This document shows, piece after piece, positions 47 through 33,437 of a stretch of DNA of 33,613 nt. How positions within the stretch are numbered: position 1 is the first letter of the stretch; every line of letters begins with the position of its first letter. Under the pieces are notes generated by a model that did no database searches, had not been told where the DNA came from, and saw nothing but the letters and a program-made list of their open reading frames with translations. Both the position numbers and the translations under genes were made by a program. This DNA comes from Desulfobacterales bacterium (GTDB lineage: Bacteria > Desulfobacterota > Desulfobacteria > Desulfobacterales > JAAELO01): NCBI GenBank assembly GCA_024226555.1, contig JAAELO010000261.1, positions 1 to 33,613 of the forward strand, read 5' to 3'.

Positions 47-553
47 ATGGAATATATTGACTCTATAGAATCAATGCTATGGAAACAGATAAATAAATTT
101 AAAAAACAAAATAACAATTTAAGTTTTTCAGATGATGAGCTTAAACATGAGGCTGTAATAGCTGCATTAAAAGCAAGGGAAGAGTGGGGCTCAAAAAAAG
201 ATAAATTTGCAAAATTAAGTACATTTGTATGGGTAAAAGTTGATATACATTTAAAATCCTTATTATACAGAAAAAGTTTTTCTATAGAGGGTAATTCGGA
301 TCTGATAGACAGATTGTCATATGAAGATAATATAGCCATAAATGAGATTATAGAAGAAGAGTTTGAAGAAGACGATAGATTTATAGATAAACTAAAAGAT
401 GAGTTAAAATTTAAACATAAAAAAGTATTAAACCACATAATATCTGGTAAACCTCAAAATCGGATAAGCAAATTAGAAAATATAAGCCCCAATGATGTAT
501 CTAAAATAAAACAGGAAATTATAGATATAGGAAAAAAACTAATTAACGAATAG
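47..553 (+). CDS. small sigma-70-like factor
   Basis: A 168-aa protein resembling a reduced sigma-70 family factor. Residues ~27-75 (DELKHEAVIAALKAREEW, then KLSTFVWVKVDIHLKSLL) match the region 2 pattern of an acidic DD/DE-L-x-x-E start and an F/W-rich helix. Residues ~110-165 (vlnHiisgkpqNRISKLENISPNDVSKIKQEI) look like a region-4-type helix-turn-helix. It lacks regions 1 and 3, as phage and ECF-like factors do. The start is the ATG after a weak GGTGAT. It is tail-to-tail with the NusA-like gene, overlapping by 11 bp. It could instead be a phage-type regulator with a sigma fold; promoter specificity cannot be read from sequence. Confidence 0.55.
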   Translation: MEYIDSIESMLWKQINKFKKQNNNLSFSDDELKHEAVIAALKAREEWGSKKDKFAKLSTFVWVKVDIHLKSLLYRKSFSIEGNSDLIDRLSYEDNIAINEIIEEEFEEDDRFIDKLKDELKFKHKKVLNHIISGKPQNRISKLENISPNDVSKIKQEIIDIGKKLINE

Positions 554-1274
554 TATTTTTAGTTATAATTTTCTCACCATTTAATTTCTCACTTATCACT
601 TTCCTGAAGTTAGAAAATTTTTCGTTAAATTCTGAATTATTAAACTGAATATCTGTTTTAATAAGAGAAAATTCTCCACAAACTCTTCTGCGAACTGAAA
701 AAATATTTAGAGGATATTTTTCTTTTAAAAGAATACCTGGAAGTTTTTTGGAAGATCTTGAAAGTTCAACTTCAAAAGGTTTACCAAAGACCTTTAAAAC
801 AAAAAAATCTAAAGTATTTCCCTCTTTATAAAGATTAAGTTCTGATTTAACCTGATTTATTTTAGGAAATATACATTTATGATTATCAATATCAACAATA
901 TATGTATCATTGTTTTTATCAACTATTGTTCCTTTTACAACTGTCTTTAGTTTTTTTTTAAAAATATTATAAAGTTCTACATTTTTATAGTAGGCACAAT
1001 AATATTTAAAATCTTCAACAATATTTTTTTTAAGAAATTCCGGTAATATTTCTAAATTAACATATTCGATAAAAAAATCTGATGGAAGATGCTCAACCTT
1101 TGATTCTAAAAAATTAGCCTCATCAATACTTATGTTCTTATCTATCTCAAAAACTATACCTATTTCATTTGAGTTGTAGATAATGCACTGATTTGATCCA
1201 TAAAATTCATTTACGTTTTTTTCTACAGATTTATAAAAAAGAGGTAAAATATCAGATTTTTCTAATGAGTACAT
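543..1274 (-). CDS. plasmid-borne NusA-like transcription factor (NTD-S1-KH1)
   Basis: A 243-aa protein that I align by eye with the first half of NusA. Residues ~1-108 correspond to the RNA polymerase-binding N-domain. Residues ~112-170 read as the S1 domain (VKGTIVDKNNDTYIVDIDNH, ending in VELSRSSKKLPGILL, cf. NusA TRSKPEMLIELF). The tail (VRRRVCGEFSLIKTDI, FRKVISEKLNGEKI) matches KH1 (AARDPGSRAKIAV, VQAVSTELGGERI). KH2 and the acidic repeats are absent; housekeeping NusA is about 350-500 aa. It is transcribed leftward from a promoter that shares its dyad with the 1421 gene. NusA modulates pausing, termination and antitermination; a plasmid-specific role on long transcripts is inference. 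Confidence 0.72.
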   Translation of the reverse strand: MYSLEKSDILPLFYKSVEKNVNEFYGSNQCIIYNSNEIGIVFEIDKNISIDEANFLESKVEHLPSDFFIEYVNLEILPEFLKKNIVEDFKYYCAYYKNVELYNIFKKKLKTVVKGTIVDKNNDTYIVDIDNHKCIFPKINQVKSELNLYKEGNTLDFFVLKVFGKPFEVELSRSSKKLPGILLKEKYPLNIFSVRRRVCGEFSLIKTDIQFNNSEFNEKFSNFRKVISEKLNGEKIITKNTIR

Positions 1275-1311: not shown

Positions 1312-1364
1312 ATTATAAGGAATTAAAAATATTAATAGTTATATATAATTACACAACATATAAC
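1312..1364 (-). promoter_or_regulatory. leftward dyad promoter of the NusA-like gene
   Basis: On the minus strand the dyad GTTATAT-N13-ATATAAC (1338-1364) is followed after exactly 20 nt by TATAAT (plus-strand ATTATA at 1312-1317), 38 bp before the start at 1274. The same dyad serves the rightward promoter, so this is a symmetric divergent control region. No TTGACA-like -35 is present; the inner arm sits at about -39 to -33. Confidence 0.7.
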
Positions 1365-2013: not shown

Positions 2014-2078
2014 ATCCCATTTAGGGATTCCTTCTTTTAGGAAATTGTCTCAATTTCTTAACTTTTCCTAAAAGGAGG
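2014..2078 (+). promoter_or_regulatory. RBS-sequestering leader of the primase gene (tandem-hairpin copy B)
   Basis: ATCCC-ATTTA-GGGAT (2014-2028) is followed by TTCCT-TCTTTT-AGGAA (2028-2043). The latter segment can instead form a 15-bp stem: CCTTCTTTTAGGAAA (2030-2044) pairs with TTTCCTAAAAGGAGG (2064-2078) with a single T·G wobble. That stem contains the complete AGGAGG Shine-Dalgarno, eight bases before the ATG at 2087. A further competing pairing is GACAATT (2003-2009) with AATTGTC in the loop. This predicts translational control of the primase by switching RNA structures. Confidence 0.65.
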
Positions 2079-2086
2079 TTTTATAA

Positions 2087-3094
2087 ATGAAAAAGTATCA
2101 AAGACTTATTAATGAGATGTACTATAAAATTGATAGAATGGTCCTTTTTAAGGATTTAAAGCCTATTAATTATGGGAATTACATCTCTTTAATTTGTCCT
2201 CAATGTGGAAAAAGAAGAGCTTTCACTATGATACCACATATGAAGACTATTAAATGCAATCGCATTAATAATTGTTCATATGAAAAAACATTTATTCAAT
2301 TCTATTCAAACAGTGATAAACCAAGAGAAGAAGAGTTTAAGAAAGTTCTTAATGATTTATGTGCAATGTCTGGTATAGAAGCAGATATTGAAGGTTTAAA
2401 CTCAAAAATAGTTTTTGAAAAAAGAAAAACAATAGATAAGAAAAAAAAGAATTCAAATTATAATCATCTCAAACCATTAATAAACAAATTCCAAAGAAAT
2501 TTAAAAAATTCTATTGGCGAAATGTACCTCTTTAAAAGAGGTCTCTCTAAAGAAATAATTAAAAGATTTAAAATTGGTTACGCTCCTTTTGGTCAATGGC
2601 CTCATTTGAAAGATGATAAGAAAGTTATGCAATCTAAGAATGGCAGGATTGTTATACCAATTTTTGAAAATCAAAATTTAATTAATCTTTATGGTAGAGC
2701 AGTTGATTTCACCGATACAGAGAAAAACAAACACGCTTTTTTACCAGGATCAAAAGGTATTTTTAATCCTCAAGGATTATACAACGATGAAGTTTATATC
2801 GTAGAGGGAGCATTTGATACCTTTTCTGTAATAATGGCGGGAAAAGAAAACGTAACGGGATTACTTCATTCATTAAGTTATAATATTTTTAAAAAATATC
2901 CTGTTAAGACTGTAATTCAAGCAACGGATCAATCTCTTAAAAAGAAATACAAAGTTAAATTTAAAGAAAAGATTATCGAGTTAGGAATTAACTATAAAGA
3001 ACTTGATAAGAAATCTTATAGGAGATGCGATGATCTAAGCGAAACATGGGAAAAATACGAAAATATAAAATTTTTATATAAAGGAGAATTTTAG
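2087..3094 (+). CDS. compact DnaG-type plasmid primase (zinc finger + Toprim)
   Basis: A 335-aa primase-like protein. An N-terminal CHC2-type zinc ribbon has Cys37, Cys40, Cys57 and Cys63. A DnaG-like core segment follows (FKRGLSKEIIKRFKIGYAP, ~residues 148-166). A Toprim domain then has the catalytic VEGAFD (Glu ~240). The usual DxD of Toprim is altered: the segment reads ATDQS, leaving one Asp where DnaG has DGD. There is no helicase-interacting C-terminal domain, and at 335 aa it is much shorter than chromosomal DnaG (~600 aa). It probably primes plasmid or transferred-strand synthesis. Its Shine-Dalgarno is buried in the leader stem. The next gene overlaps its stop (TAGTG). Confidence 0.82.
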   Translation: MKKYQRLINEMYYKIDRMVLFKDLKPINYGNYISLICPQCGKRRAFTMIPHMKTIKCNRINNCSYEKTFIQFYSNSDKPREEEFKKVLNDLCAMSGIEADIEGLNSKIVFEKRKTIDKKKKNSNYNHLKPLINKFQRNLKNSIGEMYLFKRGLSKEIIKRFKIGYAPFGQWPHLKDDKKVMQSKNGRIVIPIFENQNLINLYGRAVDFTDTEKNKHAFLPGSKGIFNPQGLYNDEVYIVEGAFDTFSVIMAGKENVTGLLHSLSYNIFKKYPVKTVIQATDQSLKKKYKVKFKEKIIELGINYKELDKKSYRRCDDLSETWEKYENIKFLYKGEF

Positions 3095-3450
3095 TGAATT
3101 TAAAAAAATCTTATAAAGACATATTGATTGGTATTCTTCCAGAATTACAGGAAAGAAAAAAAATAGTTATAAAGAGAGAAAAAAATACAACAGTAGAGAT
3201 TAGATTAAAAGATAAAGAGGTCTTTTCTGTTGGTAAATTTATTAAAGCAAATGGTGATGAGTTTTCAGATCCAGAAATAACATTGAAGATTTATCAAAAT
3301 GATATTTATCCAGTTTCGTTAGAAGTTGGAGGTTATTTTTTTGAGGAATCTGAAAGTAAAAGACTTAAATCGGAACATATGTATGAGTTAAATAAATTTA
3401 TCTCATCTAACTATGAACATATTGACGATTTTAGAATGAAAAACAATTAG
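3094..3450 (+). CDS. hypothetical protein translationally coupled to primase
   Basis: A 118-aa soluble protein that I do not recognise. It begins with GTG overlapping the primase stop codon (taGTG), with AAGGAG upstream in the end of the primase gene, so coupled translation is likely. It is charged, with a basic N-terminus. It sits between primase and SSB, which suggests a replication-associated accessory role, without a motif to support it. Confidence 0.65.
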   Translation: MNLKKSYKDILIGILPELQERKKIVIKREKNTTVEIRLKDKEVFSVGKFIKANGDEFSDPEITLKIYQNDIYPVSLEVGGYFFEESESKRLKSEHMYELNKFISSNYEHIDDFRMKNN

Positions 3451-3470: not shown

Positions 3471-3510
3471 GGTTAATCTTATTAATTTTATAAACATGGA
3501 GGTGTTTAAA

Positions 3511-3834
3511 ATGGCAGGAGTTAATAAAGCTATCCTTATTGGAAACCTTGGAAGAGATCCAGAGCTAACTACAACTCAAAGTGGAAAAAAAATATGTAAG
3601 TTTTCTCTGGCAACTTCAAAGAATTTAAAAGATGGTTCAAGCAAAACTGAATGGCACAGATGTACAGCTTTTGACAAACGAGGTGAAGCTATTCATAAGA
3701 ATGTAAAAAAAGGCGAACAACTTTATATCGAAGGAGAAATTCAATACGGACAATATGATAAAGATGGAATTAAATATTATACAACAGATATAATAGTTAG
3801 TCAGTTTTCATTTATAGGCTCAAAAAGAAAATAA
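3511..3834 (+). CDS. ssb: single-stranded DNA-binding protein
   Basis: A 107-aa SSB with a canonical OB-fold: MAGVNKAILIGNLGRDPELT, then CKFSLATS, TEWHRCTAFDKRGEA and KGEQLYIEGEIQYGQYDKDG. The start is the ATG at 3511, because GGAGGTG lies seven bases upstream; the in-frame ATG at 3496 lies immediately before that ribosome-binding site and would add only five residues. It ends just after the OB-fold and lacks the acidic C-terminal DDDIPF-type tail that recruits chromosomal partner proteins. It probably protects plasmid ssDNA during replication or transfer. Confidence 0.93.
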   Translation: MAGVNKAILIGNLGRDPELTTTQSGKKICKFSLATSKNLKDGSSKTEWHRCTAFDKRGEAIHKNVKKGEQLYIEGEIQYGQYDKDGIKYYTTDIIVSQFSFIGSKRK

Positions 3835-3852
3835 AACAATACTGACTAAATA

Positions 3853-3939
3853 CCCATTTGGGAACTAAGTATCCCAATTGGGACTCCTTATTTGAGGATG
3901 CTTAGTTTTTTATATTCTTACTAAGGAGGAAACACCTCC
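3853..3939 (+). promoter_or_regulatory. tandem-hairpin element copy C with orphan Shine-Dalgarno
   Basis: CCCATTTGGG (3853-3862) and CCCAATTGGG (3873-3882) are followed by TCCT-TATTTG-AGGA (3885-3898). ACTAAGTATCC (3864-3874) can alternatively pair with GGATGCTTAGT (3896-3906). CTCCTTA (3884-3890) pairs with TAAGGAG (3922-3928), the same anti-SD/SD logic as the primase leader, but the AAGGAGG here has no start codon after it. GGAGG-AAACA-CCTCC (3925-3939) is a further local hairpin. It lies between ssb and a strong terminator. It could be a leader whose gene is lost, or a trans-acting RNA or decoy. Confidence 0.5.
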
Positions 3940-3941
3940 AT

Positions 3942-3975
3942 AAAAAAGCTGTAACCTTTGGGTTACAGCTTTTTT
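3942..3975 (+). terminator. strong rho-independent terminator after ssb
   Basis: AAAAAAGCTGTAACC (3942-3956), loop TTTG, GGTTACAGCTTTTTT (3961-3975): a 15-bp perfect stem with flanking A and T tracts, potentially bidirectional. It separates the primase-ssb unit from the parM/tra operon. Confidence 0.92.
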
Positions 3976-3985
3976 AGTTTATATG

Positions 3986-4038
3986 GTTATATATTATCCT
4001 ATTACATATAACTAATAATAAAATATGAAACCTATAAT
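3986..4038 (+). promoter_or_regulatory. dyad promoter of the parM/transfer operon
   Basis: GTTATAT (3986-3992), 13 nt, ATATAAC (4006-4012), 20 nt, TATAAT (4033-4038): the same spacing as the promoters at 1338 and 19557. The -10 region is also one arm of a perfect 11-bp inverted repeat, AAACCTATAAT (4028-4038) with ATTATAGGTTT (4068-4078), which ends just before the parM ATG and could be an additional operator. Confidence 0.75.
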
Positions 4039-6237: not shown

Positions 6238-6357
6238 ATGGTTGTAAAGAATAATGCACATTTAAAAAAACTTTTAGATTTAAAAAAAATAGTAAATGAC
6301 CTGATCAATGTAGTTGATAAATCTAACGAAATAAAGAAGAGAAAATGCAAAGATTAA
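6238..6357 (+). CDS. 39-aa lysine-rich small protein
   Basis: ATG with GGGAGAG upstream, reading MVVKNNAHLKKLLDLKKIVN and ending KRKCKD. It is a basic amphipathic helix-like peptide with no recognised family. It fills the gap between the DsbC-like and transglycosylase genes and overlaps the latter's start by 13 bp, consistent with translational coupling. Confidence 0.5.
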   Translation: MVVKNNAHLKKLLDLKKIVNDLINVVDKSNEIKKRKCKD

Positions 6358-6773
6358 TAATGATACTTGTTATTGTTCCTTTGATTGCTTTAGGCGAAGA
6401 GTTTTGTTTTGAAGAAGCCGGAAAGATGTACGATATATCTGGAAAACTTCTTGAAACAATCTCTTTAACAGAAAGCAATAAAAATAATCTTGCTGAAAAT
6501 AGAAATAGAAAATCAGTTGATTCCTGTCATATGCAAATTAATAGTTTTTGGAAAAACAAACTTAATGGTGGTTGGGTAATGTTAAAAAAAGATCCTTGTT
6601 ACTGTAGTAAAGTAGGCTCATGGATCTTAAGGCAATGTATTAACAGGTACGGATACAACTGGAACTCTATAGTTTGTTATAATACTGGACACTCACTTGA
6701 TGATTTACCTGATAATAGAAAAGTATCAGCTGTAAAATATATCAATAGATTTTATCGAATATTGGATAATTAA
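6345..6773 (+). CDS. lytic transglycosylase of the transfer apparatus (VirB1/P19-like)
   Basis: A 142-aa secreted SLT-domain protein. Signal peptide ~1-17, then LLETISLTESNKNNLAENRN with the catalytic Glu probably at 43 (LTES). DSCHMQINSFW is the glycine-poor equivalent of the GLMQ motif, and the C-terminal motif is CYNTG. It opens local gaps in peptidoglycan for the conjugation channel. Four Cys residues suggest disulfides, fitting the Dsb-like neighbours. Confidence 0.82.
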   Translation: MQRLIMILVIVPLIALGEEFCFEEAGKMYDISGKLLETISLTESNKNNLAENRNRKSVDSCHMQINSFWKNKLNGGWVMLKKDPCYCSKVGSWILRQCINRYGYNWNSIVCYNTGHSLDDLPDNRKVSAVKYINRFYRILDN

Positions 6774-6776
6774 GAA

Positions 6777-7031
6777 ATGAACAATAAACTACAATATTAT
6801 TGTCAATTACTGTTTCTTATAACTTTAGGTATAGGATTTGTTTTTGAGGAATCATTTACAGATACTTTTCCTGAATATACCTTTATCATGCATTTTTCTC
6901 TATATATTTTTATTCTTGGTGTGATGTATTCAATAATCCTTAGAAACTTCATGGTATTTATTATGACAACAGGTTGTAGCCTTGTTTTACCATATCTTCA
7001 GAATTGGTGGTTTTTATATTGGCCTTATTAG
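6777..7031 (+). CDS. small membrane protein
   Basis: An 84-aa protein with about three hydrophobic segments (residues ~8-24, 36-55, 57-75) and an aromatic C-terminus (LQNWWFLYWPY). The family is not recognised. It starts three bases after the transglycosylase stop without a clear Shine-Dalgarno. Its place in the operon suggests a membrane component of the transfer machine. Confidence 0.6.
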   Translation: MNNKLQYYCQLLFLITLGIGFVFEESFTDTFPEYTFIMHFSLYIFILGVMYSIILRNFMVFIMTTGCSLVLPYLQNWWFLYWPY

Positions 7032-10373: not shown

Positions 10374-13310
10374 TTGAAAAATTTAGTATTAATATTATTT
10401 ATCATATGTATTTATTCTACAATTTCAGCCGAAACAAAGTTTATAAATTGTGATGGAGATAAGTGTTATTTAAAGACCTATAGAGTAGATATGCCAGTGA
10501 TGCTTTCTCAGAATACTATTTTTATGACAAATGCTATTCCAATTGAAAACAATAAGGTAAAAATAGCGTTAAACGGAGTTGAATCAGAAGTTCTATGTAG
10601 CAACACATGGCAACCACTAAATTCTATTTCAGGAAAAACCGATTTACAGAATCAGATAAAATGCTCAACAGCTCCAGATGGAAAAAATATTGCTGCTGAT
10701 ATTAAAGTCTATGATCAAAGTACCTATTCAAAATTCTATAACTCAAAACCATCGGAGCAGGGGTTTGATGAACTTATAAATACAAGTAATACTTTACCAT
10801 TCTGTTCATCTGAAACAGGTACAAATTCAATTACAAACCCTTCATGGTATTGGGAAGATCATCCAGGAGAAGAGATGCCTGATCAGGTTGTAATCGAAAA
10901 TAAATATAATGCCAATGCCTGTAAATATGAAAAAGAGATAGATGGTAAATGGTACGTATTTTCTAAAACAGAAGTAACAAATTTATTAATAGGAAGTAGC
11001 TCTATACCAGATACCAAACCATTACCAACAGATGTTTGTGTAAAAGATATAGATGGTGATGGAGTAATTAACGAAACATTTGAATATGGAAAGTGTAGAA
11101 AAACAGATAAAGGGAATCTATGTTTGTTAGAGGCTGTAAAGTGCCTTGAAAAATGGGGAGATCCTAAGTGTCTTAATAGTGGTATATTTTCTTCAGAAAA
11201 AGAAAGGTGTGAATTTCCTGTAAAAATGGAATGCCCTCCTGGGGGATTATGGAGTGAAGAGAGAAAACAATGTGAAACAATTGTTAACTATAATTGCCCT
11301 TTAAATAATGAACATAATTATACAGATCCAGATTTATGTAATACAAAATGCTTAAATCCAAATGATTGTCAAAAAATAGAGAATGAAAAAATAATATATT
11401 CTATTGATTGGCCCGTTCCTGGTTATGATTTAACTCTTCACAATATGCCCACTCCGTATAATTTAACTCGTAATATGTCTACTGGAATAATTGAAAATGG
11501 AATTTGGTATTATTCATATTTTGATCCTAATTCAGGATATTCAATAACATATTTACCTGTTGTAGCGAAAAATATTTCAAATCTTAATGAACTACCATCA
11601 AATGCTGTTAAATTAGGTGCAAAACGAGCATTTCAATACCAGCCTGGACCTGAATTGAGGGATACATGGTATTTCGAAGTTTCAGGAGGGTATAAATGCA
11701 ACGGAAGTAATGTGATGTATCCATCTGCACAATCATGTCAAGTTAGTTGCGGATCTATATCTCAAACATGTTCTTCAAAATGTCCTCCTCTTTACACAAA
11801 TGTTCAAGATTCAGGAATGTGTTCATACAAATTTCAATGCCCTCCTGGTGGCACATGGAATAATGAAAGAAAAAGATGCGAAGCTATAGTTAGTTATAGC
11901 TGTCCATATGCAACTGATGTCGATTATTCAGACCCTAATGTTTGTAATACAAATTGCTTAAATCCTGATGATTGTAAAAAAACAGAATCAGAAATTGATA
12001 CAATATATACAGTAGAAGATGAAATAGAAGACGGTGAAGCTATGTTTAAAGCCTATTATGCCATGTCTACACCATACAATCTTGTTTGGAAAGGATCTGC
12101 AAATGCTGGTGGTGAGTGTCTTAAAATGTCAATGTTTGCTGATAGTTTAGGATATTCTATATCAAATCTTCCAAAAGTAACAAAATCTTTTAGTAATCTT
12201 TCACAACTTCCACCTAATGCAATAAAAATAGGAGATGTTATGACGTGGAGTTTTGCTCATTACGGTAATCCATGCAAAAGAGGTACATATTATTTCAAAA
12301 TACCAGAAGAATATAAATGTAACGGAAGTGGGGTAAAGTACCCATCTGCTCAATCATGCCAAGAAAATTGTGGCTCAATATCTCAAACGTGTGGTTCAAA
12401 ATGCCCAGATTCTTACGAAAATATTCAAAATTCTGGAATGTGTGTAAACTACCTTCAGGAATGTCCTGAAAACTATCAAAAAGATCCAGAAACAGGAGTT
12501 TGTTATTCATCACCAAACTGCGTTGAAGGTACTTACAATGGGACCGAAAAAAAGTGTTACGAAGGAAAAACCAAATGTCCTTTTGATGTTGTTGAAGGTG
12601 ACACCATCTCAAAAGAATACCCCTGCCTGGAATATGAAGGAACCAATTATTGTAACAATAGAGAATGTGTCGATCTTGCAGGAAATGAAATAGTTGATCC
12701 TTCAACAGTGGGTGAAAGCGATTTGGAGGATAATGGAGATTGGGATTCTAATGGCAATTGCCTGGGGCAGATATATATTTACAATGGAAGTGATTCGAGA
12801 TGTAGATATGATGGAGTAAAAATACTGGGAGAAAACTGCTGCACAAAGAAGAAAAATATCCTTGGAGACATTCCTGACAATGTTGCTCTTTTAACTCCAG
12901 AGACAGCACCAATTGCTTTGTTAAATAATTCTGTTTGTGAAGTTATGGAAGTGGTAGCAGGTGTAAAAGCTCAGGAAGGATTATGTGTAAATGTTGGGGG
13001 TTATTGCAGTAACAGAATAAAATTCCCTTTCGGTGGCTCAATGTGCATAGAAAGAAAGCAAACATATTGTTGTTTTAATAGTAAGTTTGGAAAAATAACT
13101 CAGGTTGAGGGAAGAAAACAACTTGGTCTAAGTTGGGGCAGTCCAGAGAGCCCAAATTGTAGAGGGTTAACACCAGACGAATTTCAAAGTATAGATTTTT
13201 CAAATATTAATTTTGATGAAGCAGTTCAGGATATGGATATTAAAAACAGCATAGACCTGAATTCTGTCAGTACTGAAAAAGCAAATGAAAATGTTCCACA
13301 AGGAGAATAA
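10374..13310 (+). CDS. traN: TraN, mating-pair stabilisation protein with tandem cysteine-rich repeats
   Basis: A 978-aa secreted, cysteine-rich protein. TTG start with AAGGAG; signal peptide ~1-19. The C-terminal TraN signature is present: CIERKQTYCCFNSKFGKI, then EGRKQLGLSWG and CRGLTPDEFQ. The centre holds two tandem copies of a ~202-residue module (residues ~287-488 and ~489-695), each with CPPGG-W--ER--CE-IV-Y-CP, C-NPDDC, YPSAQSCQ and SISQTC. TraN is the outer-membrane adhesin that stabilises mating pairs and, in F-like plasmids, influences recipient choice. The duplication enlarges the likely surface-exposed part. Confidence 0.88.
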   Translation: MKNLVLILFIICIYSTISAETKFINCDGDKCYLKTYRVDMPVMLSQNTIFMTNAIPIENNKVKIALNGVESEVLCSNTWQPLNSISGKTDLQNQIKCSTAPDGKNIAADIKVYDQSTYSKFYNSKPSEQGFDELINTSNTLPFCSSETGTNSITNPSWYWEDHPGEEMPDQVVIENKYNANACKYEKEIDGKWYVFSKTEVTNLLIGSSSIPDTKPLPTDVCVKDIDGDGVINETFEYGKCRKTDKGNLCLLEAVKCLEKWGDPKCLNSGIFSSEKERCEFPVKMECPPGGLWSEERKQCETIVNYNCPLNNEHNYTDPDLCNTKCLNPNDCQKIENEKIIYSIDWPVPGYDLTLHNMPTPYNLTRNMSTGIIENGIWYYSYFDPNSGYSITYLPVVAKNISNLNELPSNAVKLGAKRAFQYQPGPELRDTWYFEVSGGYKCNGSNVMYPSAQSCQVSCGSISQTCSSKCPPLYTNVQDSGMCSYKFQCPPGGTWNNERKRCEAIVSYSCPYATDVDYSDPNVCNTNCLNPDDCKKTESEIDTIYTVEDEIEDGEAMFKAYYAMSTPYNLVWKGSANAGGECLKMSMFADSLGYSISNLPKVTKSFSNLSQLPPNAIKIGDVMTWSFAHYGNPCKRGTYYFKIPEEYKCNGSGVKYPSAQSCQENCGSISQTCGSKCPDSYENIQNSGMCVNYLQECPENYQKDPETGVCYSSPNCVEGTYNGTEKKCYEGKTKCPFDVVEGDTISKEYPCLEYEGTNYCNNRECVDLAGNEIVDPSTVGESDLEDNGDWDSNGNCLGQIYIYNGSDSRCRYDGVKILGENCCTKKKNILGDIPDNVALLTPETAPIALLNNSVCEVMEVVAGVKAQEGLCVNVGGYCSNRIKFPFGGSMCIERKQTYCCFNSKFGKITQVEGRKQLGLSWGSPESPNCRGLTPDEFQSIDFSNINFDEAVQDMDIKNSIDLNSVSTEKANENVPQGE

Positions 13311-13311
13311 A

Positions 13312-14302
13312 TTGATTAAAATATTGTTTAAAACCATATTAATTGTTTTTTTAATTAAATATTCTTGTTTTGCTGTATGCACACCCCAACCCTCACTTAA
13401 TCCTGCAATCGATGTTGCGTGGACTGAGGTATTTCCTATGAAAATTGGTGGAGTTACAGTTGTTCCTGGTTCAAATGGTCTTCCACCAATACCCGATAGT
13501 GGCAGTTCAGTTGTTTGTTCATGTCCTGCCCCCCCCCCCTGTTTTTGTAAGATATGGAATATATGTTTCATTTTGGGAACCAGCAAGGATGATAGAAACA
13601 GTCAAAGATCCTTATTGTTTCCCAACATTAGGAGGTGCAACAATTGGCTCTGCACCTAATGGAACTTTATCAGGTGGATCTGATGAAAAAGAAGATGGCA
13701 ATAGTGCCACTTTTTCTCAATCTCATTATTATATTTTTCCTGTCTGGTCCTTAATGGAAATAATGACTGATAGCGTGTGTTTTCAAGGCAGCAGTAAATT
13801 AGATATCGGCTATATTACAGAACTTGACCCTTTCTGGCAGTCTGATTCCATGGCAATGTTATTTCAACCTGAAGTATTGTTGTTTGCTAATCCTATAGCT
13901 CAATTATCTTGTATAGCTGACAGCATCTCATCAAACCTTGGTTTTCCTCTATCAGCATTGTTCTGGTGTGCAGGTTCCCATGGTTCTGTATATCCATTAA
14001 CTGGAGCTGTTAACGATAAAAATCTTGTTCAGGCTCAAATGACCATTGCAGAAAGAATGATTTATAAACTTTCAAGACAAGCTTTAATTTGGGACCCTGC
14101 AATATGGGCATGTGCTGCTATGCCAACGCCTATATGGGTAAAGCAAAACTACCGCTTTCAATTATCTAAGCCAATTAGAACACTTTTTTCTCACCCTCCA
14201 GGAAGGAGCGATCTTTTGTGGGGATCTCTAAAGAATCCACCAACTGGTGGTGATAACTTCACATGGATAGTTTTCAGGAAGAGATTATGCTGTGCATTTT
14301 AA
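13312..14302 (+). pseudogene. traU: traU, frame interrupted at a C11 tract
   Basis: TraU-family protein (F-type pilus assembly), readable in two frames. The N-terminal part starts at TTG 13312 (SD AAGGAG; signal peptide ending YSCFA) with AVCTPQPSLNPAIDVAWTEV. The C-terminal part continues in the next frame with RYGIYVSFWEP, DPFWQSDSM, CAGSHGSVYPLTG and WACAAMP. The break is exactly at 11 consecutive C (13529-13539). With 10 C the frame runs through as CPAPPPVFVRYGIYV, as expected of TraU. It may be a sequencing error, a phase-variable tract, or a gene rescued by slippage. As written, the first frame ends at 13659. Confidence 0.85.
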
Positions 14303-15519: not shown

Positions 15520-16330
15520 TAGCTTTGCAGAAGGGTATAAGGGATTTTATAAGGAAAAACCTGGAAGGGGTTTCTATTGGTATGAAGATCCTGTTGTAAA
15601 GAAGAAAGAAAAGGAAACTGAAAAAATAAATGAAAAAAAGAAAAACAGCAGGATTCCAAAGGAAAGATCCGTTGAAGAGATGTGGAATATGCACCCTGAC
15701 GACTTTCAGGTTTATATGAATAAAGTAACAAAATATGCAGTACAAAAACCAAGTGAAAAAAATATGTTAATGTTTATTAAGGCCAACTATGTTTCAAGTC
15801 AAAAATCTACAGCTTTTGCCAGTGTTTACGCACTTATGACCCAAAAACACCCAGAGCTTACAAACTCAGAAAATAATTCTGTCACTAATCCTGGAAAGAA
15901 GTCTCAGGATGAAATTAAATATAGAGAAATTGATGATTTGATTAATGAATCCAAGAATAATTTTACTATAATTCTCTTCAAAAAAGATGGTGATAAAAGA
16001 TGCGAAGCACAAAAGAAAATACTTTACTATTTTGAGCGTAAGTATAAATGGCAAATTAAAGATATAGATTTGGACCTTAACCCACATATTGCAAAAAAAT
16101 ATAAAATTAAAAGAGTTCCCTACTTACTTCTCTTAAATGATGATTTAAAAGAGATGCCTCTGTCATTAGGTGTAATCGCAATGAATACACTAACAGAAAG
16201 GCTATATAGATCAATTAGGTATATGAATGGAGATATTTCTCCAGAACAATATGTAATTCATGAGTTTAAAATGGGATCTGGATCAGACCCCCTTTCATTT
16301 TTAAACAATTCAAAGAAAAAGAAAGACTAA
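15443..16330 (+). CDS. traF: TraF, F-type pilus assembly thioredoxin-fold protein
   Basis: A TraF-family periplasmic protein of ~295 aa. The mature N-terminus carries GFYKEKPGRGFYWYEDP, the TraF G-F-F/Y-W-Y signature, then an SVEEMWNMHPDDFQVYMN segment and a C-terminal thioredoxin fold (IILFKKDGDKRCEAQKK, IKRVPYLLLL). The usual CxxC is reduced to one Cys, as in F plasmid TraF, so redox activity is unlikely. I chose ATG 15443 because GGAG lies seven bases upstream; ATG 15467 would give a more compact signal peptide. The start overlaps the peptidase gene by 77 bp. Confidence 0.82.
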   Translation: MIHTTQNTMVLLKKVVFMLLLILCSNSFAEGYKGFYKEKPGRGFYWYEDPVVKKKEKETEKINEKKKNSRIPKERSVEEMWNMHPDDFQVYMNKVTKYAVQKPSEKNMLMFIKANYVSSQKSTAFASVYALMTQKHPELTNSENNSVTNPGKKSQDEIKYREIDDLINESKNNFTIILFKKDGDKRCEAQKKILYYFERKYKWQIKDIDLDLNPHIAKKYKIKRVPYLLLLNDDLKEMPLSLGVIAMNTLTERLYRSIRYMNGDISPEQYVIHEFKMGSGSDPLSFLNNSKKKKD

Positions 16331-16334
16331 TATC

Positions 16335-16673
16335 ATGAAGATAAATATTATATTAATAATAGCCTTTTTCCCCTTTATTTCTTTAGGTTCGGCATTAGAT
16401 CAATATGCTATTGTTGTTTTTTACAGAAACGATTGTGGCTATTGTTACGCTCAACAGAGCGTATTAAATAAAATTAAGAAAAAATACAATATTACGGTTT
16501 CTTATGTTGATTATAAAAAAAGTACTTTTTCTATTCCAAAAACGCCTTATACAGTTCTGCTTAAAAGATATTACAGGCAACCAATAATACTCTCAGAAGG
16601 GTTTTCTACATTTGAAGAAATGGAAACTGAGTTAATAAGAGGGATAAACCATATAGAAGGAAACAGACGATGA
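16335..16673 (+). CDS. periplasmic thioredoxin-like protein (TrbB-like)
   Basis: A 112-aa protein with a signal peptide (~1-20) and an IVVFYRNDCGYCYAQQ active site (Cys34, Cys37). A cis-proline follows in KTPYTVLL (Pro71). It is probably a minimal disulfide oxidoreductase equivalent to TrbB, which assists folding of TraN/TraU-type proteins. Its ATG lies four bases after the traF stop, and its own stop overlaps the next ATG. Confidence 0.8.
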   Translation: MKINIILIIAFFPFISLGSALDQYAIVVFYRNDCGYCYAQQSVLNKIKKKYNITVSYVDYKKSTFSIPKTPYTVLLKRYYRQPIILSEGFSTFEEMETELIRGINHIEGNRR

Positions 16674-18283
16674 AAATTAAAATAAATATAATTATGATAA
16701 TTGTTTTTTCTGTTAATATCGCTTTTTCTGAAGACCCTATGAAATCAAACTATCAAAAAGGTGTTTCTTCAGGAAATGAGATATCAAATCAATTCTCAAG
16801 TCCGGATAAAATTAATGAGAAAATATTCAATCCTTTGTCTGGAAGTGGAGAGTTAAAAACCGTGGATGGATCTAAAAAAGGTGCTGTGAAAATACAAGCT
16901 CCTTCCTCTAAAAGTTTTTTAAAGGTTTCTGCTTTTAATACAGCTACAGGAGATATATCTATAATTGTTAATCAGGACATAGACTTAGATGGAAAATTCG
17001 ATTTTGAATACCACGTTCCTTCCTTGGTATCTGGTGTTTGTGCTAATGGATTTGTTAGTTGTACACCTGGTACATTTACAAATGAAAAATTTTATAAATG
17101 GAAGATTGTTGATAAAAAAACATCAACAGAACAAGTAACGGAACTTAAAGAAATGTCTGGATGTTATTGTGTAAATAACAGTTGTAATTCAAAGCTATTC
17201 ACAAATAACATTCAAAGAATATTGCGTGATGTTGCAGGGGGATTAGTTTCTGTTATTCAAAAGGATAATCCCCAATTGGCTATATCATCTACCGAAAATG
17301 ATAGTGTTAGTATTACATTTTTTGGACAGGAAGTTGATGGTGTTGGAAAAAATATTGTACAATCAAACCCAAATATGTATCAATCGGGAACTTCAGATCC
17401 TCAAAAATATTATGAATTAGGTAGCCTTCCTGGAGATGAAGAAAAAGATAAACAAAAAGGTAATGATAATAGTTCATATAATGTCTTAATGAGTAGTCAT
17501 CAGGCTAAGAATCCTAAAGAGTTAAAATCATGCAGAGTTGATATCACACCATATATTGATATTGTTGATGAAGTTAAAACACCTAAAGTTGATATAAAAA
17601 ATACATGTTCTGAAATACTAAATGACTCAGATTGTAATATATATAATAAAAATGCTTGTGGTCAAAATGGCTTGAGTTGCGTATCTATAATAAAAAAGAA
17701 ACAAGACACAGGGCTAACTCTTATTCCACAACAAATTAATCTTGATGATTTCACATTCACTGCTAACAGCAACCAAATAATATATACCCAAGGATCTAAT
17801 ACAGGTGTTGTTATTGCAGGGGAGAATTCTAATTTTACCACAAAATATGAATTTCTATGTACAGATTCAGACAAGGAATTTAACTATGATGATAGTTTAA
17901 ACAGTACTCACAACATAAATGAAAGTGTTGAAGTAAATGGTTCCAATGTTGCCTATGAAGCTTTTGGCAGAAGTAACAGTATAAGCATGCCTTATACAGA
18001 AAACCCTGAAACATGTGAGAAGGTTTGTAAGGTTGAACTTGTTGTAGAAGATAATGAAGTTGGTAACAATTCTGGCGAATTGGTTAAAACCTGGGATAAA
18101 AACAAAACTGATAATAATAACAAGAAAGAATATCTATATTTAGCTTGTAAAGATAACATCTGCCCTAATTCAGAAGATCAAAATGTTGTTGATCAATGTA
18201 AATGTATAAATAAATTTCCTGAAGCTATTGGAAAACTTCAATCAATTAAAAATGCTTCAAAAGATATGATCTGCACACAGTAA
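16670..18283 (+). CDS. second TraN-like secreted protein (TraN N-terminal domain type)
   Basis: A 537-aa secreted protein. Signal peptide ~1-20, then a Ser/Asn-rich segment (SNYQKGVSSGNEISNQFSSP, 26-45) that recurs in the next gene. The domain at ~54-225 has FLKVSAFNTATGDISIIVNQ, DIDLDGKFDFEYHVPSLVSG, VCANGFVSCTPGTF, SGCYCVNNSC and DVAGGLVSVI, which I associate with the N-terminal part of large TraN proteins. The rest is cysteine-bearing and low-complexity. Together with the 978-aa TraN it may represent a TraN split over two polypeptides. Family assignment is from memory. Confidence 0.6.
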   Translation: MKIKINIIMIIVFSVNIAFSEDPMKSNYQKGVSSGNEISNQFSSPDKINEKIFNPLSGSGELKTVDGSKKGAVKIQAPSSKSFLKVSAFNTATGDISIIVNQDIDLDGKFDFEYHVPSLVSGVCANGFVSCTPGTFTNEKFYKWKIVDKKTSTEQVTELKEMSGCYCVNNSCNSKLFTNNIQRILRDVAGGLVSVIQKDNPQLAISSTENDSVSITFFGQEVDGVGKNIVQSNPNMYQSGTSDPQKYYELGSLPGDEEKDKQKGNDNSSYNVLMSSHQAKNPKELKSCRVDITPYIDIVDEVKTPKVDIKNTCSEILNDSDCNIYNKNACGQNGLSCVSIIKKKQDTGLTLIPQQINLDDFTFTANSNQIIYTQGSNTGVVIAGENSNFTTKYEFLCTDSDKEFNYDDSLNSTHNINESVEVNGSNVAYEAFGRSNSISMPYTENPETCEKVCKVELVVEDNEVGNNSGELVKTWDKNKTDNNNKKEYLYLACKDNICPNSEDQNVVDQCKCINKFPEAIGKLQSIKNASKDMICTQ

Positions 18284-18308: not shown

Positions 18309-18995
18309 ATGCCTACTTTAGAAGAGATAAAAAAACAGATTCAAGAAATTTCAGGTCCCATTCTAACATTAGGAACAAAAAAGGAAATTCAGTACCTTCC
18401 TGAAATTTTGAATGAAGGGGAAACTGTATTAGGACTTACATCAGGGTTGATGAATGCAAACACATGGTTAATTGTTTGTACACAAAAAAGAGTGATATTT
18501 TTAGATAAAGGTTGGATTTACGGATTGGAACAGTTTGAAATACCATTGAATAAAATTAATTCTATTAAACAAAAAACAGGGCTTTTTGTGGGTGAAATTT
18601 GTATCCAGGATGGACAGGGAGGAGTTGAAATAAAAAATGTATTAAAGAAAACTGTAAAATACTTTGTTTCTGTTGTTAGCAATGCAATAGATGGAAAGTT
18701 TAAAGCTAACGATGAAAAGATTAATCAATCAGAATCGAACTATCAAAAATGTGTTTCATCAGGAAATAAGATATCAAATCAGTTTTCAAGTCCGGATAAA
18801 ATTAATGAAACTGAATTCAATGATATTGACGAAACTATCTCAAATCTAAAAACATTCAGAGAAAAACTACCTGAGATAAGAAATTCAAAATACATAAATG
18901 AAAATGATGATCTTTCTGAAGCTGCAAACTGTTTTGAAATATCATTACATACTTTTTTACATGAAATTGAAAATAAAGAACTTCAAATTTTATAA
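18309..18995 (+). CDS. bacterial PH-domain protein carrying a duplicated TraN-like segment
   Basis: A 228-aa cytoplasmic protein. Residues ~30-112 form a bacterial PH-like domain (EGETVLGLTSGLMNANTWLI, VCTQKRVIFLDKGW, EIPLNKINSIKQKTGLFVGE). Residues 143-171 (SNYQKCVSSGNKISNQFSSP and on) are nearly identical to residues 26-54 of the preceding secreted protein, and the DNA is about 87% identical over 87 nt. A helical C-terminus follows. No signal peptide. The function in the operon is unknown; the shared segment shows a recent local duplication into a different protein context. Confidence 0.65.
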   Translation: MPTLEEIKKQIQEISGPILTLGTKKEIQYLPEILNEGETVLGLTSGLMNANTWLIVCTQKRVIFLDKGWIYGLEQFEIPLNKINSIKQKTGLFVGEICIQDGQGGVEIKNVLKKTVKYFVSVVSNAIDGKFKANDEKINQSESNYQKCVSSGNKISNQFSSPDKINETEFNDIDETISNLKTFREKLPEIRNSKYINENDDLSEAANCFEISLHTFLHEIENKELQIL

Positions 18996-19556: not shown

Positions 19557-19609
19557 GTTATATCGAACAGCATACGATATAACTATTTGTTAATTTACAT
19601 TCCTATAAT
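19557..19609 (+). promoter_or_regulatory. dyad promoter of the 19695 secreted-protein gene
   Basis: GTTATAT (19557-19563), 13 nt, ATATAAC (19577-19583), 20 nt, TATAAT (19604-19609), followed by GTGTTTAAGAA, similar to the sequence after the other -10 boxes. Here the intervening 13 nt are GC-richer, so the arms stand out clearly. The leader to the ATG is ~85 nt. Confidence 0.75.
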
Positions 19610-24424: not shown

Positions 24425-24589
24425 ATGAGTTTAAAAGAAGAGTTTTCAGAAATTCAAAAAGGAACTAATGAAATAGTAGCTTTATCAGAAAAATTAATGG
24501 AAAAAAAAGATAGCTCAAGATTTTTAAAAACAACATTGAATATTATTTTGAGCGAAATTGAAGCAAAAGAGAATAAATTAAACCGTTGA
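24425..24589 (+). CDS. 54-aa helical small protein
   Basis: MSLKEEFSEIQKGTNEIVAL and on to EAKENKLNR, with AAAGGAAA upstream. It is probably a coiled helix. Similar in size and character to the 55-aa protein at 19013; homology is not established. Confidence 0.45.
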   Translation: MSLKEEFSEIQKGTNEIVALSEKLMEKKDSSRFLKTTLNIILSEIEAKENKLNR

Positions 24590-24928
24590 TTAGATCTTTT
24601 TGTCAGAAAATCCAATTGTCGGTATAATAAAGTAGATCATTATAAAAACAAAGATTCCAAGACTTATATATAAAATATATTTTATATCAGTTATAGAATA
24701 GATTCCAAAAGATAAGAAAAATGAAGCTGCTGATAGTAACAAAAATTTATCAGAGAGATATCTGTCATTCCAAATTCTATGTAAAAGAGTTTTGAAAAGA
24801 TGCGATTTATCTGTTTTTCTTAAAAATTCATCTATTATAACATTTTCATCCCGTCTTTCTAAAGTATCTGTTTTAACATCAGAAAATAGTGATAATAATA
24901 ACTCGTTTACTGTGGAGTACGGAATGAA
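24590..24928 (-). pseudogene. 5'-truncated gene for a two-helix membrane protein
   Basis: An open minus-strand frame with no start codon encodes NELLLSLFSDVKTDTLERRD, then an acidic/basic helix and two transmembrane segments (FLLLSAASFFLSFGIYSI and YILYISLGIFVFIMIYFI), ending GFSDKKI. The frame simply ends at a stop near 24929 where the oppositely oriented truncated gene begins. The N-terminus has therefore been lost. Confidence 0.5.
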
Positions 24929-26690: not shown

Positions 26691-26927
26691 TTATGTTAAT
26701 TCTTTTTTTACCTCTGAAAGTGATTTCTCGCTCCAGGATAAATCTAATTGAACTTTTCTTGATGATAATATTTCATCAAGATAAATAGAACCTAATTCAG
26801 CACAAACAGGATCATTTAGAAATGCATAACCATAAGGTTTTATCTCATTAAGTTTATTTTTAACTCTGTTCCTTTTTAGATAATTAAATTTAATTTTTAG
26901 TTCATTGAAAATTGATAATAATTTCAT
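26691..26927 (-). CDS. 78-aa hypothetical protein with structured leader
   Basis: A basic N-terminus (MKLLSIFNELKIKFNYLKRN) and an acidic/helical C-terminus (LDLSWSEKSLSEVKKELT). No family recognised. Its Shine-Dalgarno AAAGGA lies in the 3' arm of the second hairpin of a tandem-hairpin leader, as at the primase gene, suggesting shared translational control. Confidence 0.5.
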   Translation of the reverse strand: MKLLSIFNELKIKFNYLKRNRVKNKLNEIKPYGYAFLNDPVCAELGSIYLDEILSSRKVQLDLSWSEKSLSEVKKELT

Positions 26928-26933
26928 AGATTA

Positions 26934-26997
26934 TTCCTTTCTCTTAAAAGGAACATTAATATCCCTGAATTGGGAAAATTAATATTCCCAATTAGGG
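26934..26997 (-). promoter_or_regulatory. tandem-hairpin leader, copy E (minus strand)
   Basis: Reading the minus strand: TCCC-AATTCA-GGGA (26975-26962) then TTCCTTT-TAAGAG-AAAGGAA (26953-26934), and the ATG follows at 26927. A preceding CCCTAATTGGGAA can instead pair with TTCCCAATTCAGGG as one long stem, so alternative folds exist. The ribosome-binding site is within the second stem. Confidence 0.55.
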
Positions 26998-27000
26998 TTA

Positions 27001-33384: not shown

Positions 33385-33437
33385 GTTATATCTATATGCA
33401 TAAAATATAATCAAATGTATAGATCAATATCTATAAT
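33385..33437 (+). promoter_or_regulatory. dyad promoter reading rightward through the iteron array
   Basis: GTTATAT (33385-33391), 13 nt, ATATAAT (33405-33411, one mismatch to ATATAAC), 20 nt, TATAAT (33432-33437). The spacing is identical to the other dyad promoters. Transcription would run through the 36-bp iterons and out of the window. Confidence 0.6.

Follow-up and report, generated by a model that had tools for sequence, protein, structure and literature searches.

The window analysed here, an entire contig (C261 of genome G000) of 33,613 bp with a GC content of 0.28, encodes a Rep3 initiator, ParA/ParB, a ParM-like protein, SSB, TraN, TraU, TrbC, TraF and a TraD-like coupling protein, and as judged from these genes it is an F-type (TraU/TraN) conjugative plasmid or a relative. 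The traU gene is split over two frames (13285-13659 and 13445-14302, forward strand), which reflects either an assembly error or a real frameshift. A second contig of the same genome, C273 (32,487 bp; locus L027), carries genes whose translations we take to represent the rest of the F-type transfer system, and it is probably part of the window's plasmid. The dyad GTTATAT-N13-ATATAAC has four exact occurrences in the 7.69-Mb genome, three in the window (1338-1364, 3986-4012 and 19557-19583) and one on C273 (219-245). The dyad is followed, after a fixed gap, by a -10-like box (CCTATAATG/TCTATAATG), and a weaker dyad is located at 33385, upstream of rep; these promoters look like one plasmid regulon. 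Just before the dyad promoter of C273, tandem repeats of about 36 nt (1-210) were recognised by eye and are iteron- or oriT-like. The same contig codes for a 655-aa TnpB/Cas12f-like protein (15813-17780, reverse strand; Pfam Cas12f1-like_TNB, 1.8e-14).

The operon of interest lies on the forward strand and starts with the gene for a DnaG-like primase of 335 aa (2087-3094; Pfam DNAG_N, 9e-7; TIGR01391 dnaG, 3e-10, below its cut-off). It is followed by a 118-aa ORF (3094-3450), which starts on the last base of the primase ORF and has a weak, below cut-off likeness to DUF6908, and by ssb (3511-3834; Pfam SSB, 2e-29). The three genes are closely spaced on one strand, and with a strong intrinsic terminator after ssb (3941-3976) they are likely to form one operon. 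Upstream, the window contains a gene for a NusA-like protein (543-1274, reverse strand; TIGR01953, 3.6e-9, far below the cut-off), adjoined by a gene for a sigma-ECF-like protein (47-553, forward strand; 1.1e-6, below the cut-off).

Another record (contig C2 of G048) is very likely the plasmid of Desulfosarcina sp. BuS5; since BuS5 was placed in the same order as the window's genome, it probably belongs to the Desulfobacterales. This record contains NusA-like and annotated sigma-70-family genes near the homologue of a 115-aa ORF in the window (at 1421). A spacer of about 500 nt (6322-6817 of locus L029) separates this homologue from ssb in BuS5 and ends in a different SD-masking stem, with an opening cost of 7.8 kcal/mol and a fold z-score of -2.2.

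The stem over the primase Shine-Dalgarno sequence

A reading made from the sequence only had proposed that the Shine-Dalgarno (SD) sequence of the primase gene is buried in a 15-bp stem, and the coordinates bear this out. The anti-SD arm CCTTCTTTTAGGAAA (2030-2044) pairs with TTTCCTAAAAGGAGG (2064-2078) across a 19-nt loop, with one G.U pair (U2033.G2075) and no run of bulges or mismatches, and the SD, AGGAGG (2073-2078), lies wholly inside the stem. It ranks second in length, behind a 16-bp terminator, among the forward-strand stems of the window that are uninterrupted, contain no more than one G.U pair and enclose loops of 3-60 nt. Folding of the RNA 1990-2100, the check suggested by that reading, gave -32.4 kcal/mol and a z-score of -3.5, with none of 200 shuffles as good, and the stem wins for eight of nine assumed starts. 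For the RNA 2004-2110 the z-score was -3.1 (3 of 200 shuffles), and a stem of 15 bp arose in one of 1500 dinucleotide shuffles of this segment.

The cost of opening the primase SD is 7.1-11.4 kcal/mol for eight of the nine assumed 5' ends (range 1960 to 2030). The stem also forms with assumed 5' ends at 1893 and 1960, and it is kept in a read-through RNA from 1397 (P ~0.94 for most pairs). With a 5' end at 2045, the 5' arm is lost and the opening cost falls to 2.8 kcal/mol. Transcripts starting downstream of 2044 were one circumstance under which the sequence-only reading would have been wrong; a scan for the sigma-70 consensus, which covers this promoter type alone, lends them no support, the nearest forward-strand matches being at 1858-1886 and 2112-2139. 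SD-opening costs were compared across 141 genes that have an SD and encode at least 100 aa, of which 100 come from a 264-kb sample of the same genome and 41 from the two plasmid contigs. The primase SD is the costliest to open, at 9.3 kcal/mol as compared to a median of 2.0 kcal/mol.

An SD held in a hairpin could act as an RNA thermometer. In the model, the primase stem does not open at any temperature between 10 and 60 °C, and it has no run of bulges or mismatches. Temperature control is therefore unlikely, and we regard a thermometer at this site as barely credible.

Two alternative pairings had been thought to release the SD. Both exist, and the first, TTCCT/AGGAA (2028-2032/2039-2043), does compete with the stem: it forms a small hairpin, P3 (2028-2043), which is seen in the SD-open folds, would free the SD and contains TCCTTNTTTNAGGA, a segment shared with the second copy of the leader element described below. 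The second, GACAATT/AATTGTC, extends to a 9-bp helix, S1, between GGGACAATT (2001-2009) and AATTGTCTC (2043-2051), with one G.U pair and a segment-shuffle P of about 0.01-0.03. It overlaps the 15-bp stem by nucleotides 2043-2044 only and shares none with the 13-bp core of the stem, so S1 alone would not release the SD.

Upstream of the stem, a hairpin, H1 (1990-2027), appears in the minimum free energy folds and coincides with a match at 1990 to the tandem hairpin pattern presented below. In H1, a degenerate P0 element, TCCTGTAATGGG, is paired with P2, and the 5' strand of S1 is placed in the loop or the stem. P2 can also fold as a hairpin of its own, TCCCATTTAGGGA (2015-2027), which is common to the second copy and to other leaders. 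The box CCTGTAATG at 1991 was at first read as the -10 element of a primase promoter, because CCTRTAATG follows the dyad at a distance of 19 nt in three other places; this assignment is weakened by the fact that the same letters form the P0 hairpin of the leader set.

A copy of the leader element behind ssb

A paralogue of the leader element, here called U, was identified by alignment and by pattern match in the 3'UTR of ssb (3852-3929, forward strand). It consists of P0 (3852-3863), S1 (3863-3871/3899-3907), P2 (3872-3883) and AGGAGG (3924-3929). The local alignment of the primase leader with U scores 56, as compared to a maximum of 52 in 2000 shuffles. The primase leader was also compared to blocks of 146 nt placed at 40-nt steps along both strands of the window. 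Those overlapping U were the best matches (64 and 56, with 53 for the next block), and the pattern TCCCNNTTN{0,2}GGGANTCCTT has exactly two sites in the 7.69 Mb, the primase leader and U. In both copies, the 9-bp S1 encloses P2 and an anti-SD-like arm (P 0.013 and 0.008), and the 3' strand of S1 is flush against that arm. U also resembles a terminator, with a 12-bp stem followed by T6, an equally ordinary role.

Directly after U comes AAACACCTCCAT (3930-3941), which is exactly complementary, over 12 nt, to the SD region of ssb, ATGGAGGTGTTT (3496-3507), or else forms the 3' half of a local GGAGG/CCTCC hairpin. In a comparison of the complementarity between the 3'UTR and the gene's own SD in 38 genes, ssb ranked best with its 12 nt, while the others did not exceed 9 nt, of which no more than one was a G or C. 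Only 0.1% of 20,000 shuffled ssb 3'UTRs reached 12 nt (P 0.001), and in the folded operon the core of the pairing has P ~0.94. In S. aureus, a C-rich motif in the icaR 3'UTR is reported to pair with the SD of its own mRNA (PMC3868564). Control of this type blocks initiation and creates an RNase III site. The ssb gene has such a motif, complementary to its own SD and predicted to pair with it, and by analogy the pairing of 3930-3941 with the ssb SD would mask the latter. It differs from the case of icaR in that the predicted pairing covers 12 nt, involves a segment that immediately follows a second leader element and has a local hairpin as a competitor. U may thereby add control of ssb to that of the primase, and an SD-hiding leader combined with a 3'UTR able to mask the SD of the last gene would be unusual in one operon.

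A rival explanation is autogenous control. SSB of the plasmid would bind the leader and its copy in the 3'UTR, and incoming single-stranded DNA would titrate SSB, such that primase and ssb are turned on together in conjugation. This is in line with the location of ssb in the same likely operon and of U in its 3'UTR, followed by the 12-nt complement of the ssb SD, and with a pseudoknot of S1 and the stem that looks geometrically possible, given the flush strands. A precedent is provided by the gene 32 translational operator of T4 and RB69, a structured leader near the SD in the mRNA of an SSB gene (PMC535899). Here, however, the leader belongs to a primase gene and its relatives to RadC, DUF932 and other genes, and the binding of SSB is hypothetical. 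None of the other leaders in the set stands directly before ssb, and the ssb leader of BuS5 is different, for which reasons we consider this explanation quite improbable.

Leaders with the same architecture

A model built from the primase leader and U (R1) gave weak further matches on the two plasmid contigs, with E-values of 0.05-0.23. Two of the three were on the strand opposite to the leaders, as the hairpins are near-palindromic. The sites share a common plan: P0 (ACCC-N4-GGGA), 8-10 nt, P2 (TCCC-N4-6-GGGA), and then an SD and a start codon. Four looser relatives are leaders on this plasmid, namely W26998m in the window (26928-26998, reverse strand), which has P0, an 11-bp S1, P2 and an anti-SD/SD hairpin and precedes a 78-aa gene (26691-26927, reverse strand), and C18358, C18953 and C19790 on C273. 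In W26998m, C18953 and C19790, S1 joins the P0-P2 spacer to the strand after P2 by 11 bp of unlike sequence, while a bulge interrupts it in C18358 and leaves a longest run of 5 bp (P 0.75). The proteins encoded by the C273 genes at 18424, 19018 and 19877, behind three of the leaders, appear by eye to have a C-terminal segment in common.

A descriptor of the tandem hairpins that uses neither S1 nor the anti-SD had no site in the background contigs of the genome (264 kb). It matched on each of the two plasmid contigs and, among 33 loci from relatives (594 kb in total), in L029, L041 and L043; a later scan added L022. The 33 loci had been chosen for other reasons, and the later scan left out 15 locus names that duplicate the window, C273 or the BuS5 record, as well as a 10-base stub. 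Its 14 sites, together with C19790, which it did not list and which was added from reading around the R1 matches, make 15, of which 11 were classed as leaders. Six leaders were located on four other records, two each from BuS5 and G046 and one each from G023 and G081. The BuS5 leaders precede an operon for a DUF932-TOPRIM primase and a gene for RadC, and the G046 pair is orthologous to them; the G023 and G081 leaders precede RadC. The RadC domain was confirmed behind three of the four RadC leaders, and the TOPRIM domain of the DUF932-TOPRIM primase was confirmed as well; the RadC gene of G046 runs off the contig and was named from its likeness to that of BuS5. The G081 contig (L022) also holds a broken, N-terminal homologue of the primase.

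In 10 of the 11 leaders S1 comprises 8-11 bp, and in 10 of the 11 the anti-SD pairs with the SD over 5-9 bp; the near-identity of the BuS5 and G046 leaders means that the 11 represent about nine independent cases. The remaining 4 of the 15 sites, with 5-6 bp in S1 and 3-4 bp between anti-SD and SD, were judged to be due to chance. In the three strands that would exchange partners, an SD-mimic, the anti-SD and the SD, sequences differ in concert between leaders, most plainly in those on the other records: GGGGAC/GTCCTC/GGAGGAC, GGGGCA/TGCCTC/GGAGGCA and GGGAGGT/ACCTCC/GGAGGT (with the anti-SD also given as ACCTCCC). The anti-SD can pair with either the mimic or the SD, with 4-7 nt common to the two pairings in 9 of 10 leaders. 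The exception is the primase leader, which has the tandem hairpins with a degenerate P0 and an S1 of 9 bp against a lower bound of at least 8 bp (shuffle P 0.027), but in which the 3' strand of S1 pairs with the SD over only 4 bp and the actual anti-SD arm is separate, with 2 nt in common with S1.

The formal count of paired changes was made on an alignment of three leaders (A4; C18953, W26998m and C18358), because MAFFT alignments of the whole set misplace S1 or P2. In A4, 7 of 13 pairs change on both sides, all of them in S1; this was matched by one of 500 shuffles, and versions slid along the sequence failed to reach it. A covariance model from these three leaders (R2) ranked C19790 first among those plasmid sites that were new to it, with E 0.0008 in 66 kb and 0.095 over the entire genome. 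It did not recognise the primase leader on its own strand (E 2.1), gave at best E 2.2 (L041) for the BuS5-type leaders on theirs, and met L043 7767, L043 9756 and L029 11474 on the opposite strand (E 0.03-0.42). Since R2 misses both the primase and the BuS5-type leaders, the groups are linked by architecture rather than by one scored model, and convergence is possible. As to the covariation in homologous leaders that the sequence-only reading had called for, related leaders keep the layout with changed sequence; a leader of a close primase orthologue was not found in the collections named below. The broader proposal that this layout serves translational control is partly supported. It gains from the similarly built leaders elsewhere on the plasmid and on four further records, and of the agents then considered temperature is unlikely.

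No convincing copy was found with R1 or R2 in the other genomes of the 379 and 370, respectively, that were searched in the order. The best R2 match in these 370 genomes has E 0.005, and the 11 matches inspected look like chance or terminators. In a collection of viral contigs, neither the pattern of the primase leader and U nor that of the dyad promoter had a match, and none of 48 stretches with GGGAGGTTTTCTCCC had a rightly placed GGAGG and ATG. One DUF932 leader from Xanthomonas had no tandem element. Close homologues of the primase were not found in a collection of genome contigs, the viral contigs, seven genomes with a near TraU and 58, 389 and 389 genomes of the order or class (in overlapping draws); plasmid and phage matches (2 and 7 records) are distant, with 27-34% identity. 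Nothing in the window reached the gathering score in Rfam, and the other stretches searched gave sub-threshold matches only. One of these, the DUF2815 RNA for C18358, was rejected, with 23 bits as compared to the 41.2 needed, E 0.012 on 101 bases and agreement at the two ends only. Literature searches, weak on subscription journals, returned no description of a set of tandem-hairpin leaders that switch an SD.

The tandem hairpins might matter as DNA rather than RNA. If they were operators of a plasmid repressor, the RNA folds would be a by-product; P0 and P2 are indeed near-palindromes in tandem, 20-25 bp or about two helical turns from start to start, and the promoter-like CCTGTAATG overlaps P0 in the primase leader. 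Operators leave S1, the anti-SD, the concerted changes and the copy at the end of ssb unexplained, and we hold them to be a very improbable explanation. Hairpins would form in single-stranded DNA too. The Frpo and ssi elements in the leading regions of F-like plasmids are single-stranded DNA promoters, and structures of this kind, as promoters or priming sites, could act on the transferred strand. The ssb gene is of a leading-region type, as presumably are those for primase, RadC and DUF932, and the hairpin elements resemble Frpo and ssi elements (PMC11541004) in being repeated near early plasmid genes. Frpo and ssi elements are promoters, however, whereas the structures found here end at SDs and pair with them, and H1 is by inference too short for a -35/-10 promoter. 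Their action as single-stranded DNA therefore seems more remote still.

A candidate bistable switch

The explanation that we favour, by a narrow lead over its negation, is that F-type conjugative plasmids of Desulfobacterales carry a set of bistable leader RNAs for translational control, to which the primase leader belongs as a divergent member. In the proposed OFF fold, the long hairpin H1 would hide the SD-mimic, and the anti-SD strand would be paired with the true SD. For the ON state, the halves of H1 would fold apart as P0 and P2, the mimic would pair with the anti-SD to form S1, and the SD would be free. Translation would most likely be off by default, with H1 and the anti-SD:SD pairing in place, and the formation of S1 would turn it on. 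Computation shows the pairings and how they recur in 11 leaders, as well as concerted differences in sequence and, in most leaders, small energy gaps; from these we infer that the leader RNAs may switch in cells and that switching would set translation.

The OFF energy minus the ON energy ranges from -9.2 to +1.9 kcal/mol in 10 leaders and is within 5.5 kcal/mol in 8 of the 10; in the eleventh, C18358, OFF wins by 1.8 kcal/mol. Three leaders hide the SD weakly, with opening costs of 1.0, 1.6 and 3.6 kcal/mol. The primase leader is the least typical of the set, with its degenerate P0, separate anti-SD arm, OFF lead of 9.2 kcal/mol and E-value of 2.1 with R2. Its much stronger OFF stem and its own anti-SD arm suggest that tight repression would be the default.

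The same figures can be read in terms of a constitutive brake, a stem that is never opened and that keeps primase translation low or protects the mRNA, with a likeness to the other leaders that is partly due to chance or convergence. With eight of the nine assumed starts, the OFF fold is ahead by 7-11 kcal/mol; its competitors P3 and S1 are weak, a ligand-binding site cannot be identified and R2 fails to recognise the primase leader. P0, P2 and S1 would be superfluous to a silent brake, yet they recur with concerted changes and in U, and several related leaders have nearly equal OFF and ON energies, which leads us to view a mere brake as unlikely.

If the leaders are bistable switches, the balance between OFF and ON could be tipped by factors encoded on the plasmid, with the NusA-like protein (543-1274) and SSB as candidates, and the genes for primase, DUF932-primase, RadC and the small proteins would presumably be controlled together by one signal. 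A wider version, possible if rather doubtful, is a plasmid-wide RNA regulon in which one signal flips the shared three-strand SD switch and the copy in the ssb 3'UTR reaches the ssb SD. The signal would perhaps be the NusA-like protein, SSB or the entry of single-stranded DNA, and the conjugative plasmid would open its establishment genes at the level of translation.

The proposed mechanism is of a known kind. In translational riboswitches, an exchange of strands between anti-SD and anti-anti-SD creates mutually exclusive helices that decide whether the SD is free. One example is SAM-II in S. meliloti (PMC9373788). The leaders described here are similar in the mutually exclusive helices that would govern the SD, but they contain no aptamer recognised at the Rfam gathering score, have a core of tandem CCC/GGG hairpins and precede plasmid genes rather than metabolic genes. 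Expression of repZ in IncI/IncB plasmids is controlled by a stem, a leader peptide and a pseudoknot. The likeness to repZ lies in a plasmid gene of replication type with its SD in a stem; the primase leader differs in having no convincing leader peptide, the only ORF being one of 8 codons with a TTG start (2045-2071) and AGGA 2 nt away, which was read by eye and rejected.

The set is thus a candidate new RNA family of translational leaders borne by conjugative plasmids. If real, it would be a cis-regulatory RNA family specific to such plasmids, and the gating of their early genes at translation would add to the transcriptional control already known for genes of the leading region. The BuS5-type leaders of RadC and DUF932, in which the strands differ in concert, are suited to clean tests by compensatory mutations.

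A second repeat family, of about 145 nt, was also observed on the two plasmid contigs. Its four copies are 74-80% identical and carry GCAGTCCC..GGGATACA; they are located at 27197-27055 (reverse strand) in the window and at 18125-18278 (forward strand), 22392-22236 (reverse strand) and 24483-24623 (forward strand) on C273. Both bases are changed in 4 of 16 pairs, and from the sequences a non-coding RNA is possible. Two of the copies end about 57 and 80 nt before leaders of the tandem-hairpin set.
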